Below are positions 16,454-54,566 of a stretch of 64,000 nucleotides of DNA, one piece after another. The position numbers and the translations under genes were made by a program. The notes beneath the pieces were generated by a model. The model was not told the DNA's origin and ran no database searches. It was given only the letters and a program-made list of their open reading frames with translations. Position 1 is the first letter of the stretch. Every line of letters begins with the position of its first letter. This DNA comes from Melioribacteraceae bacterium (GTDB lineage Bacteria > Bacteroidota > Ignavibacteria > Ignavibacteriales > Melioribacteraceae), in contig BQMY01000078.1 in NCBI GenBank assembly GCA_022181065.1, positions 1 to 64,000 on the forward strand. Reading direction: 5' to 3'.

Positions 16454-16474
16454 GAGACGCCATTTATGGCGTCT
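16454..16474. repeat. Palindrome flanking element A, left copy
   Basis: A 21-bp hairpin (GAGACGCC...GGCGTCT). It is repeated in direct orientation with one mismatch at 16675-16695, on the other side of element A. Confidence 0.8.
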
Positions 16475-16674: not shown

Positions 16675-16695
16675 GAGACGCCATTTATGACGTCT
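16675..16695. repeat. Palindrome flanking element A, right copy
   Basis: Direct repeat of 16454-16474 with one mismatch, immediately after the element end. It is extended to a perfect outer end (CGTCTC). Confidence 0.8.
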
Positions 16696-16771
16696 CTACA
16701 ATTTTGATTTCGGGTGCAGGAAGATAGGATAATGTAAATTTTTCCCGGCACTCAGTACTAACCACTCAGCA

Positions 16772-22758: not shown

Positions 22759-23700
22759 ATGAAATCTTTCTCCCTTATATTGATAATTCTAATTGGAATT
22801 TCTTCACTCTCAATTGCACAACGAAATACTCGCTGGGGTTTGCTGTTGGGTGTAGAAATGCAGTCAACTTCCCATACAAATCCTTATGTGGTTTATCAGG
22901 GTACTGAATACGCGCCAACATCTTATCAAGGCTTTGAAGATAACACAACACACTTCTATTTCCCCTTCGGTTATTACGCTTATAATGAAGATTTTTACAC
23001 GGAGTTTTCAACCAGCGCGGCACATCTGCTGATAGTAGGTATCGCAAATTTGTTAAACCCGAATAAGGAATATAAATACACCACAGACAAGGTTTACATT
23101 GGTGATTCATATGCTGATGGTTACATACCTGTATTTAATGATTTCGAACAAAATACATCCTCCGAGTGGGGACTTGGAAATGGTCAGGGAATTGAAGCGA
23201 GTTATAATGAACAGGAGTTGTTCAGACTTGCATTTTCAGGCTCTTTGAAGGAATATTACGTTCCGATATCTGCTGGGGTGCAGGGTGGAATTGGTAAAAT
23301 TGGTGTGCATTTCGCAAATGTACAGGAAGGACATGAACCTTCACCGGCTAATACAGACGGACCCGGTTTAACAAATTTTAATGACTTTACACACCTTAGT
23401 TATGGTGTAAACATTGGGAAAGGCATTTCAATTACCGGTAAGGACCTGCTTTATGTACTCGCCTACTATGACTGGTTTTACTTTATGGATGGTGTTGATG
23501 AAGCGCAGGGCGGAGGAAACAGATTAACTATTGAGGCTACTTATTTCCCATTTGAAAACGGCACTTTTTTGGGTAACCTTTCTTTCAAAGGCTATTATAA
23601 AAATATCAGCATACCTTTTATGAAGAATTTCAACGAAGTATTACCTGTTGATTATAGTAATTCTACCATCGGACTGGGAGTAAACCTGTTCTTGTTGTAA
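22759..23700 (+). CDS. Secreted protein, probable outer-membrane barrel, unknown function
   Basis: A 313-residue protein with a signal peptide (ending SSLSIAQ). The mature part is rich in Tyr, Phe and Gly, with alternating strands (LLYVLAYYDWFYFMDG, RLTIEATYFPF), and ends in a hydrophobic strand (IGLGVNLFLL). This is typical of outer-membrane beta barrels. I do not recognise a family. It lies downstream of a kinase-regulator pair on the same strand, which may control it, but 162 bp separate them. No T9SS tail is present. Confidence 0.6.
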   Translation: MKSFSLILIILIGISSLSIAQRNTRWGLLLGVEMQSTSHTNPYVVYQGTEYAPTSYQGFEDNTTHFYFPFGYYAYNEDFYTEFSTSAAHLLIVGIANLLNPNKEYKYTTDKVYIGDSYADGYIPVFNDFEQNTSSEWGLGNGQGIEASYNEQELFRLAFSGSLKEYYVPISAGVQGGIGKIGVHFANVQEGHEPSPANTDGPGLTNFNDFTHLSYGVNIGKGISITGKDLLYVLAYYDWFYFMDGVDEAQGGGNRLTIEATYFPFENGTFLGNLSFKGYYKNISIPFMKNFNEVLPVDYSNSTIGLGVNLFLL

Positions 23701-23833
23701 CAGGCGGTTGTATGCCGGCGGCGATTCCCCTTGCCGCCGGCGATTTTTCTAAACTCTTCTTCTGCGATCTTTACCAATCTAAAAATCAAATCTGTAAACT
23801 TTCTCGGAATATATCCCGTCCCGTAAATAAATA

Positions 23834-23856
23834 GAATCTTTTTACTAAAAGATTTA
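23834..23856. repeat. Palindromic direct repeat flanking element B, left copy
   Basis: A 23-bp sequence (GAATCTTTTTAC, then AAAAGATTTA). It forms the hairpin AATCTTTT-TACT-AAAAGATT. It is repeated perfectly at 24077-24099. Confidence 0.9.
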
Positions 23857-24076
23857 AGTATGTTGACAAAGTCATTTTGATACAAAGTCCTCCTTGGAAG
23901 GAGGTGGATTCCGACGAATGTCGGAAGACGGAGGATGATTTATTGCATCTTTTGTGACTTTTGGTCATCCCCCATCACAATATCCGCCGATGGCGGAGTG
24001 ATTTCCCCCTTCAAAACCTGTGCGCCTCAGGCGTAGGGGGACGTGAAAATCAACTGCCATGTTTTTCAACAATCTC
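23857..24076 (-). mobile_element. Five-hairpin MITE-like element, copy B
   Basis: A 220-bp non-coding element filling most of the gap 23701-24153. Read on the minus strand it starts GAGATTGTTGAAAAAC and ends ACTTTGTCAACATACT, the same ends as copy A. The termini are inverted repeats with 9 of 10 matching (TGTTGAAAAA against TGTTGACAAA). It has the same order of hairpins. The first hairpin loop carries about 20 extra bases with a small palindrome (CGCCTGAGGCG). The stretch 23701-23833 upstream holds only a GC-rich GCCGGCGGC segment after the barrel gene. Confidence 0.82.
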
Positions 24077-24099
24077 GAATCTTTTTACTAAAAGATTTA
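24077..24099. repeat. Palindromic direct repeat flanking element B, right copy
   Basis: Perfect 23-bp repeat of 23834-23856, directly adjoining the other end of element B. Confidence 0.9.
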
Positions 24100-24153
24100 G
24101 CTTTTTCTTCGAATATAGGTTGTGTATAACGGGATATTATCAGGGCTAAAATT

Positions 24154-26274
24154 TTGAATCTTACGAAAGCAAAAGGATTCCGGCTGCTTTTGAGTGATCT
24201 TTTTTTCACTCTTGCTGTCATATCAGGCGGGTATTACATCTGGCTGAGGGGTGGAGGAATATTCAGACAGGGAATCCCGGGTGTTATATCCTTTCTTTTC
24301 GAAACTCTAATCATCTTATCTACAAGTTACTACCTTTATGTATATCTCCAGCGTGATAGAAAAAAGAGTACTATTTCGGATATTCGGAGTGTTGCCGGAA
24401 GTATTGATATTTTTGTCATCATTGAAAATAAAAATATTGAAGCGGTAAAGGCTACACTTGAGAGCATTGGTAAACTTGATACTAATATGCAGGTTTACAA
24501 ATTTCTGATATGTGATGAATGTACTGATGAGATTGAAATATTCACTCAGGAATATAAATGCAGAGTTTTACATGATGATCCTAAAAATCCGTTTAACGAG
24601 GAAGGAATAAATCTGGCCTTCCTCAAATCGGAGGCAAAATATTTGATTTTCGTAAAATCGGGTTCGAAACTTGCGCCTAATTTCATAGGGAAAACTTTAC
24701 CACATTTTATTGATGAGAACGTTTGTCTGGTTCAGGGTGCGCGTAAAATTTCATTTGAAAGAGAAGTTGAACTTAAATCGGTATTTGGTTTTGCGGCAAA
24801 TATTCTTTCTGTAGTTGGTGTGAAAAGTATAAAACTTGATATGCTAAGTGATGATTCGATCACTTATACACAAGAGTATCTATCCGGTAAAAAGTTTTCT
24901 CTTTCCGAATGGAATGGAGTTATTATTGAAAAAGATTCTTTTACAAAACATCTTCCCTATCTCGAACCGGAAGTGGAGGAGGATTTAAGTCTGTTTGAAG
25001 ATTTGGATGATGACGGCCCCTTGTCAACATCTGATGACGATGATGATGATTTTTTACAGCAGGTATCTAATAGAAATACATCTGAAGATGAGGAAGTTCT
25101 GGTTGACGATCAGGACTATGAGGAAAAGGATGAGGATGAATCTGAGGATATTTCTGAAGAAGAAAGCACCGAGGATGAAAGCGGAGAAGGTGAAGAAGAA
25201 AACCTGGATGCAAACGCTATCGGTGACGAAGAGGAGAAACCTGACGATGTAGATGAGGAGGAGGCTGATAAAGATGAGGATACAGACGCTCCGGATGCGG
25301 AGGAAGAGACAGCAGGTGAAGAAGCCCAAACAGACGAGGATATTTCTTCTGATGATGAGGAGTCTGCAAATGAGGGAGTAGTGGATGAAAGTGAAGAAGA
25401 TGAATCTGAAGAAAACGAAGAAGATCAGGATGAGGTTATAGAAGGGGCAGCAGAAAACGATACTTCTGATGAAGACGATGATGATTACGAAGATGATGAT
25501 CTTGATGAAACCGAAGATGAAGATATTGAAGTAAATGAAAAAACTGATGTAAAGGAGTTGTCATTTCCCAAATTACCAAAGGATTTTGAACTTGGGTTAA
25601 GAGTATTTACACAGAAAGAAACAAAAGCTGTATTGCTCCCCGAGCAACTGGTGGAAAAAAACGTTCCTGCATCCATACATGAACGGATTTTATTTGATAT
25701 CAATTTTTTCAGGAAAATTATTACCGCGCTCAAAGCAAAAAAACAAATCAAATCATTTGGTCCCAGTGGAGAGGCAATAACCAATATGTTTGGCGCTCTT
25801 GCCGGATTTATTTCCCAGATATTGGTCTATTTTTGGGGCATTTATTTGATAATTGTCACTTCTCTTCAAATTGATGTAATAAGTGAGAAAGAGTTTTTAT
25901 TGGTACTCCCGTCATTTTTAATATTTGTTATGAGTCTGGAAATCAGGTCAAACCTGATATATGGTAGTGAAGGTTTTTTTACAAAAGTTAAAAGGGTTAT
26001 ACTTGCGCCCTATTATACCGGATTAATAAAGATAATTAGAGATGAAAATAGTGGAGAATATATAGTTGAAAACGCAATGGGGTACCTGAGGTATCTGCTA
26101 TTATCTCTTAATGTTACCGCTATAATTGTAACTGTCATCAGGATTATTTTTTACTATGAACCGAGGTTAAATATCGCGATTCTATTCTTATTGTTATTTT
26201 TCTTTTTTGTGCTCTCCGGTTCGCTGCTCTTTTTTTACACCCTTTCGAAAAAAGATGAGATAATTGTAGAATGA
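24154..26274 (+). CDS. Degenerate GT2-like membrane protein with long acidic insertion
   Basis: A 706-residue protein. Two N-terminal membrane helices (about 12-32 and 42-62), a GT2-like domain and four C-terminal helices match the layout of processive (cellulose-synthase/hyaluronan-like) glycosyltransferases. The catalytic signatures are damaged: the DAD position reads KSGSKLAPNFI and the QxxRW position reads FDINFFRKI. The TED-like region survives as KDFELGLRVF near residue 475. Between the acceptor-side strand (WNGVIIEKDSF) and that motif lies an Asp/Glu-dominated insertion of nearly 200 residues (about 271-468). The start is TTG; no ATG is close. It overlaps the DUF3131 gene by 4 bp. It is probably a non-catalytic membrane partner; the function is unknown. 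Confidence 0.65.
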   Translation: MNLTKAKGFRLLLSDLFFTLAVISGGYYIWLRGGGIFRQGIPGVISFLFETLIILSTSYYLYVYLQRDRKKSTISDIRSVAGSIDIFVIIENKNIEAVKATLESIGKLDTNMQVYKFLICDECTDEIEIFTQEYKCRVLHDDPKNPFNEEGINLAFLKSEAKYLIFVKSGSKLAPNFIGKTLPHFIDENVCLVQGARKISFEREVELKSVFGFAANILSVVGVKSIKLDMLSDDSITYTQEYLSGKKFSLSEWNGVIIEKDSFTKHLPYLEPEVEEDLSLFEDLDDDGPLSTSDDDDDDFLQQVSNRNTSEDEEVLVDDQDYEEKDEDESEDISEEESTEDESGEGEEENLDANAIGDEEEKPDDVDEEEADKDEDTDAPDAEEETAGEEAQTDEDISSDDEESANEGVVDESEEDESEENEEDQDEVIEGAAENDTSDEDDDDYEDDDLDETEDEDIEVNEKTDVKELSFPKLPKDFELGLRVFTQKETKAVLLPEQLVEKNVPASIHERILFDINFFRKIITALKAKKQIKSFGPSGEAITNMFGALAGFISQILVYFWGIYLIIVTSLQIDVISEKEFLLVLPSFLIFVMSLEIRSNLIYGSEGFFTKVKRVILAPYYTGLIKIIRDENSGEYIVENAMGYLRYLLLSLNVTAIIVTVIRIIFYYEPRLNIAILFLLLFFFFVLSGSLLFFYTLSKKDEIIVE

Positions 26275-53965: not shown

Positions 53966-54118
53966 AAAGTTGGAAAATAAAAAATAATGCCGTCTGAGTT
54001 TTGACCTCAACCCCTGCGTCGCGGCGCACCCTTCTCCTGACAACAGGAGAAGGGGAGTAAAAATTATTATCATCCTATCTTTACTTCTGGATAAACCTGC
54101 TAGAAGTTTTAATGCCTC

Positions 54119-54151
54119 TGAGACGGGTCCGCCGCGGCGGATATCCCGTCT
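54119..54151. repeat. GAGACG palindrome
   Basis: GAGACGGG and CCCGTCTC enclose a GC-rich self-complementary core (TCCGCCGCGGCGGA). It belongs to the same hairpin style as the palindromes beside element A. Confidence 0.6.
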
Positions 54152-54225
54152 CTACGACGATTGGATCATTTTTCCGTAGAGATGCCATACGCTTGCTGAG
54201 ATTGTCGAAGTACATGGCGTCTATT

Positions 54226-54400
54226 TGTGTTAAAAACAAGTTGTTGATTTTAAAGTCCCCCGTCGAAGGGGGTGCCACAACGTGGCGGGGGATGACCAAA
54301 AGTCACGAAAAAAGAACAAGTCATCCTCCGTCTTTCGACTATCGTCGAAATCCACCTCCTTCGAAAGGAGGACTTTTAAAGCTAGCAGATTTGCCAACGG
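54226..54400 (+). mobile_element. Five-hairpin MITE-like element, copy C (degenerate)
   Basis: It shares with copies A and B the order TGTTAAAAAC, GTTGATTTT, a CCCCC/GGGGG hairpin, GGGGGATGACCAAAAGTCA, then CATCCTCCGTCTTTCGAC, the fourth hairpin TTTCGAC-TATC-GTCGAAA and the fifth CCTCCTT-CGA-AAGGAGG. The second hairpin is replaced by GCCAC-AAC-GTGGC and the right end is only weakly recognisable (TTTGCCAACGG). The rest of 53966-54590 is AT-rich and carries a GAGACG palindrome on the left and a hairpin on the right. Confidence 0.65.
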
Positions 54401-54409
54401 TCAAAAGTC

Positions 54410-54436
54410 GGGGCTGACTACTTTTTAGTCAGCCCC
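54410..54436. terminator. GGGGCTGACTA hairpin
   Basis: An 11-bp perfect stem GGGGCTGACTA/TAGTCAGCCCC with loop CTTTT lies between the S46 peptidase and eno. There is no clear T tract. The same stem sequence, slightly altered, is used at 63266-63294, so it may be a family of terminator-like hairpins. Confidence 0.55.
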
Positions 54437-54566
54437 TCTAAGCATGGCTAATTATTTTTCCGCTTTACTTCATACTTTTTCACACCTTCACCTTAATATT
54501 TTATTAATCGAAAGTAATTGAAAATCACGCGTCATTTAGGTAAATTTATATGATTGAATTTTTTAA

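Follow-up and report, generated by a model that had tools for sequence, protein, structure and literature searches.

A gene-free element between two copies of a hairpin

The window, by which we mean the whole 64-kb stretch of Melioribacteraceae DNA that was analysed, carries a short element bounded by hairpins between two open reading frames on its plus strand. A second full copy and a third, differently framed copy of its interior core lie elsewhere in the window. The features are as follows.

22759-23700, plus strand: upstream neighbour ORF, 313 aa
23713-23742, plus strand: separate terminator-like hairpin, outside the element and 3′ of the upstream ORF
23834-23856, plus strand: left copy of the target hairpin, GAATCTTTTTACTAAAAGATTTA, with stem AATCTTTT/AAAAGATT (repeat search and folding)
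23857-24076, plus strand: the MITE proper, 220 bp, gene-free (sequence, copies and ORF check)
23857-23871, plus strand: left terminus AGTATGTTGACAAAG; consensus of the copies AGTCTGTTGACAAAG; counterpart in the IGN16 insertion sequence (IS) AGACTGTTGACAAAG
23900-23935, plus strand: interior repeat core, GGAGGTGG-(TTCCGAC/GTCGGAA hairpin)-GACGGAGGA, common to repeats adjoining DUF559 genes
24061-24076, plus strand: right terminus GTTTTTCAACAATCTC; counterpart in the IGN16 IS GTTTTTCAACAACCTG
24077-24099, plus strand: right copy of the target hairpin, with TTTTT 2 bases downstream
24154-26274, plus strand: downstream neighbour ORF, 706 aa
16475-16674, minus strand: second full MITE copy, 200 bp
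16675-16696 (GAGACGTCATAAATGGCGTCTC) and 16455-16474 (AGACGCCATAAATGGCGTCT): hairpin duplication of the second copy
54324-54359, minus strand: third core in the window, without the left IS1182-type end

The preliminary description had read the locus as a 220-bp element between two perfect 23-bp direct repeats, each itself a hairpin, with near-perfect inverted repeats at its inner termini and no coding capacity, and each part of that reading was borne out. The copies at 23834-23856 and 24077-24099 are identical, and a search of the window for the 23-mer that tolerated up to 3 mismatches gave these two and no others, with 0 matches in 100 shuffles. The repeat folds into a hairpin whose stem of 8 bp is closed by a 4-nt loop (z = -4.6), and the termini pair as claimed. 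The longest ORF touching 23834-24099 spans 77 aa and enters from outside. A search of 23500-24400 against Rfam returned 4 matches, every one of them under its gathering score.

Copies in the host genome and their flanks

The element is repeated throughout the host genome (4.9 Mb, 164 contigs), which is the only genome of its genus. At least 39 further places matched the stretch at E <= 5e-56 among the best 40 of 194 first-look candidates, and a 57-base core of the MITE, with up to 3 mismatches allowed, gave 58 matches against 0 for a reversed control pattern; a strict pattern joining the left end to the core gave no match. Beyond the host, the MITE was matched in one other of the 79 family genomes, by a 43-bp core-like stretch in G075 (up to 10 scored candidates per genome). 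In the 391 class genomes, at 2 scored candidates per genome, 6 were matched, and the 5 non-host matches fell only within query positions 22-80.

Among the 58 core matches a left end was recognisable in 41 and a right end in 33. Flank statistics were taken from the 27 copies in which both ends were recognised and the flanks were long enough, the other 31 missing one end or sufficient flank, and hairpins were scored by simple stem counts. Stems scoring 6 or more abutted the left end in 18/27 copies (control, 4.6% of 527 random positions) and the right end in 16/27 (5.7% of 527 random positions). In 20/27 copies the left and right flanks repeated one another with a score of at least 11, compared with 4.3% of 702 mismatched pairs; 7 copies missed this cut-off. 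The flanking hairpins vary in sequence between sites and are mostly present on both sides; examples are AGGGGCTTGCGCCCCT (L002/L088) and AGCCGGAATATCTTTTTGATACTCCGGCA, which is 29 bases long (L006/L064). An A-run 5′ of the left hairpin or a T-run 3′ of the right one accompanied 11/16 MITEs, with single-run controls of 9.6% and 5.6%. The multiple copies and the paired flanks support the view, put forward in the preliminary description, of a MITE-like, non-autonomous element with a hairpin-copying target duplication. They also extend it, in that the hairpin is not peculiar to this locus: in most MITE copies with both ends, and in most scorable insertions of the autonomous relatives described below, a hairpin serves as the target and is duplicated whole.

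At two contig ends of the host assembly (C104:1-67 and C152:1-76; L022 and L018) the MITE continues into the same foreign sequence, CCTGAAATAGGTTGACT, which is perhaps another IS that inserted into the MITE and was collapsed in assembly.

An IS1182-family insertion sequence with matching ends

Matches to PF13751 were present in 32/79 family genomes, and 30 IS1182-type loci were checked for their ends. One of them, in G033, has the MITE termini and a palindrome on each side; this locus is that of Ignavibacteriae bacterium isolate IGN16, the two being 100% identical (L038/L122). The IGN16 IS was thus chosen for its matching ends out of 30 loci. Its 481-aa protein scores 472 bits against the IS1182 model NF033551 of NCBIfam (cut-off 270) and contains the Pfam domains DUF772 and DDE_Tnp_1_6. 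The IS ends share 14/15 and 15/17 bases with the MITE consensus, and the left/right asymmetry is the same in both, with TGTTGACAAAG on the left and TTTTTCAACA on the right. When the IS ends were compared with the window, both MITE copies gave the best matches at their own ends, with 13/15 and 14/17 bases, followed by next-best matches of 12/15 and 13/17. Outside the ends, no likeness is visible between the MITE interior and the IGN16 IS. The hairpin copies at the IGN16 IS have loops that are mutually reverse complementary, which makes them an inverted rather than a direct repeat, and with a score of 11 this IS falls under the duplication cut-off used for its relatives below.

The host's own IS1182 transposase was considered as a partner and rejected, having ends of GGGGCTGACTAAAAAG and 31% similarity over part of its length only. 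No transposase of the IGN16-IS clade was found in the host genome, the search there giving only this one distant IS1182 relative with other ends, and among the 391 class genomes (up to 4 scored candidates per genome) a close relative of the transposase was found in IGN16 only. Since no transposase of the type that fits the MITE termini was found in the host, the partner was probably lost from the lineage, and mobilisation in trans is suggested by the termini and the target. The element has what an IS1182-derived MITE should have: termini shared with an IS1182 partner, multiple gene-free copies, and the same target choice as the partner group. A partner in the same genome, which is usual and not required, was not found.

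Whole-hairpin duplication among autonomous relatives

With the IGN16 transposase as query, 80 loci were fetched, of which 58 were distinct insertions with two ends and unique flanks; the remaining 22 lay near a contig end or had one or both ends missed by the terminus pattern, which had been written after ends had been seen. Hairpins abutted both IS ends in 50/58 insertions, with single-end controls of 7.8% and 6.0% of 870. In 45/58 ISs the entire hairpin was directly repeated on the two sides (score of at least 14), compared with 0.18% of mismatched pairs, and 13/58, the IGN16 IS among them, fell under this cut-off. The feet of the stem were placed 0-1 nt from the IS end on both sides in 49/50 cases, and in 41/50 ISs the two hairpins were identical, at lengths of 16 to 33 bp. 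In a second scan, which covered 51 ISs with hairpins on both sides and left out one further IS, an A-run 5′ of the left hairpin or a T-run 3′ of the right hairpin, the arrangement of an intrinsic terminator, was found in 47/51; the single runs occurred at 7.9% and 8.8% of random positions. The hosts of the clade include Bacillota, Pseudomonadota, Lentisphaerota and a Flavobacteriaceae bacterium.

Five of the 58 ISs (L128, L144, L149, L186 and L195), together with the plasmid insertion L241, are situated between two different hairpins. These need recombination or another route, as if copies had recombined after insertion. On plasmids, relatives were present in 329 records. Among nine insertions hand-picked from the 40 of these that were listed, seven showed the duplication; L241 was one of the others, and the ends of L243 were unclear.

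A tree was drawn for 62 transposases, which remained from 101 loci offered once 14 without a usable ORF and 25 that were too short (including L043) had been removed. All 39 rows labelled as duplicating, 31 by score and 8 by eye (including L038, whose score is under the cut-off), fell into one 54-row clade with a support of 99/100. The same clade holds 6 rows scored otherwise and 9 unscored rows, and two loop-insertion rows lie outside it, in a part of the tree that several long branches make uncertain.

Three other IS1182 loci from the same bacterial family (L037, L041 and L043) lie between both arms of one hairpin, without duplication of the whole hairpin, and insertion between hairpin arms is a third outcome besides deletion and duplication. 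Reading by eye gave no clear hairpin pattern for L035, L036, L039, which ends at a contig end, or the host's own L031.

Empty sites on plasmids

Three plasmid backbones were found both with and without an IS, and in each the IS-free form has one hairpin where the IS-bearing form reads hairpin-IS-hairpin. The duplicated unit is 19 bases in Bacillus plasmids (filled, L231; empty, L235 and L236), with the aligned pieces of L231 and L235 100% identical; 23 bases in Rhizobium plasmids (filled, L232; empty, L237 and L238, in which one hairpin base differs); and 20 bases in a Salinivibrio plasmid (filled, L234; empty, L239). A second Salinivibrio empty-site record, L240, was left out as it was not anchored. 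Stem-loop replacement of the IS1272 type thus describes these three clade ISs in its choice of a hairpin as target and not in its outcome, the hairpin being duplicated rather than deleted. Identical hairpins of varying length, together with empty sites of 19, 20 and 23 bp, indicate that the length of the duplication follows the hairpin and not a fixed stagger.

These results also bear on what the preliminary description had expected of the element's history. Empty sites with a single hairpin, which it had named as the trace to look for, exist for the autonomous relatives on plasmids and were not found for the window MITE. It had also supposed that the element depends on an unknown transposase; the match of the termini to an IS1182-family IS allows the type of this enzyme to be named with fair confidence. 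A transposase gene with nearly the same termini was found in IGN16 and not in the host genome.

The interior repeat and its possible link to DUF559 genes

The interior core, GGAGGTGG-hairpin-GACGGAGGA, occurs 116 times in the host genome and 15 times in G305, a genome of the same order. Eight others of the 391 genomes were matched once, and 1 match in total came from the reversed control. In 59 of the 62 distinct host cores the stem is perfect over at least 6 pairs though stem sequences differ, with changes on both sides; the host stems include TTCCGAC/GTCGGAA, TTTCGAC/GTCGAAA and ATTTAAC/GTTAAAT, and those of G305 include ACCCGC/GCGGGT and ATCCGCC/GGCGGAT. In the host, a DUF559 gene is enclosed by the core and the right-hand part of the repeat, GACTTTTGGTCATCCCCC (L209, contig C108, with minus-strand cores at 1249, 1405 and 1971); in G305 (L225) a core adjoins another DUF559 gene in opposite orientation. 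The link consists of these two loci, with the gene in the orientation of the core in one and opposite to it in the other, in genomes of different families within one order. DUF559 proteins are Vsr-like nucleases. Because IS1182-type ends here enclose a core common to DUF559-flanking repeats, the MITE resembles a DUF559-type repeat that lacks the gene and is set between IS1182 ends, although the evidence for such a composite is suggestive only. The DUF559-adjoining repeat, with its conserved frame and changing but nearly always paired hairpin, might constitute a separate mobile repeat system.

Discussion

The element is very probably a MITE of an IS1182 subgroup whose transposase targets stem-loop DNA, usually a terminator-like hairpin, and we consider it best read as a relic, composite in structure, of a terminator-targeting and terminator-duplicating IS1182 group. 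Termini that agree with those of an IS1182-family IS, direct whole-hairpin copies on both sides of most scorable MITE and IS copies, and a single hairpin on IS-free plasmids where IS-bearing ones have two show a hairpin target and a foot-to-foot duplication whose length varies with the hairpin. The MITE would have been amplified in trans by a transposase of the clade that has since disappeared from the host, and its interior would derive from a DUF559-associated repeat that came to lie between two IS ends. As a terminator would be rebuilt on each side, insertion should do little damage to neighbouring genes and should leave the element insulated. Most DDE transposases make a target duplication of fixed short length. 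Here the duplication follows the length of the stem-loop, and the transposase therefore probably engages both feet of the folded palindrome. We further favour, with somewhat better than even confidence, a more general model in which the transposases of this widespread IS1182 clade cut a cruciform at the 5′ foot of each arm and duplicate whatever hairpin is present, a DDE transposition with a stagger read from the shape of the DNA; rebuilding of the terminator would then place the element, along with its MITEs and what they enclose, at an insulated site where it does almost no harm, and would spread terminators through genomes.

Other explanations account for parts of the data. The interior repeat might itself be the mobile unit, moved by the DUF559 nuclease or another enzyme, with the IS1182-like termini as passengers or a coincidence. 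With 116 occurrences the core is twice as frequent as the 58 close MITE-type matches, it adjoins DUF559 genes in two genomes that belong to separate families of one order, and some of its copies have other outer frames (L081, L091, L092, L105, L109, L115 and L118). We nevertheless regard this as unlikely, since the direct repeats of the MITE copies begin at the IS1182-like ends and not at the edges of the core, and since both termini, including their asymmetry, match an intact IS. Less likely still is a fixed duplication of about 20-30 bp made by a palindrome-preferring transposase, in which the hairpin would not set the length. The mean hairpin of about 21-23 bp would agree with it, but it does not accommodate the 41 ISs flanked by identical hairpins of 16 to 33 bp with stem feet at the IS ends, or the 19, 20 and 23 bp obtained from the three empty sites. 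That the hairpins are separate terminators, homogenised by recombination or gene conversion without any target duplication, appears highly improbable given the single hairpin at the empty sites and the matching whole hairpins at 45/58 ISs, 41 of them identical; what speaks for it are the six insertions between different hairpins and the MITE copies in which the pair of hairpins differs.

The targeting of stem-loops by a MITE and its IS1182 relatives can be set beside several known systems. IS1272 and TnSha1 of staphylococci resemble the present clade in having an IS1182-family transposase and hairpin targets of no fixed sequence, several of which are confirmed terminators. Part of the hairpin is reported to be deleted without target duplication (PMC4923244), and a second account describes stem-loop replacement by IS1272, with duplication of the whole stem-loop drawn only as a possible pathway b in its Figure 13 (PMC5678879). 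IS1272 and TnSha1 delete or replace the hairpin, whereas the present clade keeps it whole on both sides and is thus their hairpin-keeping counterpart. An ISBspe1-type element on plasmid pBpOF4-01 of Alkalihalophilus pseudofirmus has a transposase of the IGN16-IS clade, ends of the CAG..TGT.GA.AAA type and a duplicated hairpin; it carries its own transposase, unlike the window element, which has no gene and encloses foreign sequence. Bacterial MITEs, as described in the accessible text of a review (PMC10969869), are likewise short, gene-free and multi-copy, with terminal inverted repeats and a target duplication, but in the window the duplication is an entire stem-loop; neither 'IS1182' nor 'hairpin' occurs in that text. 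Palindromic targets are also used by IS1397 and ISPpu10 (PMC10433421) and by IS1111 in QMITE2 (PMC10969869). To judge by the titles and the passage available, those targets are particular repeat families, while here the hairpin varies between sites.

In a search of the open-access literature, no account turned up of an IS or a MITE that duplicates a whole hairpin, and passages of PMC8868234 had nothing relevant. ISfinder reportedly gives duplications of 0-60 bp for IS1182, and parts of the hairpin duplication may already be known to specialists. The hairpin-keeping clade and the hairpin-deleting IS1272 belong to one family and can be compared residue by residue, and the findings open the direct question of whether cruciforms form at terminators in living cells. 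They also provide a search rule for such ISs and MITEs, namely directly repeated terminators, and point to a possible natural system for insertion at safe sites 3′ of genes.

Additional arrangements of the interior core

In G305, cores are arranged head-to-tail with a spacing of about 244-262 bp at three places (C16:190-484, C88:35810-36092 and C96:12034-12558). Tandem cores also occur in the host, at C89:31471 and 31737 (L092), where they are 266 bp apart and placed by GAGACG/CGTCTC, in an outer frame that is not of the IS1182 type. The third core of the window (54324-54359, minus strand), in the region 54050-54520, comes after a perfectly paired hairpin, GGGGCTGACTA/TAGTCAGCCCC, similar to the end of the host's other IS1182 element (L031), and this arrangement is perhaps a second type of composite.
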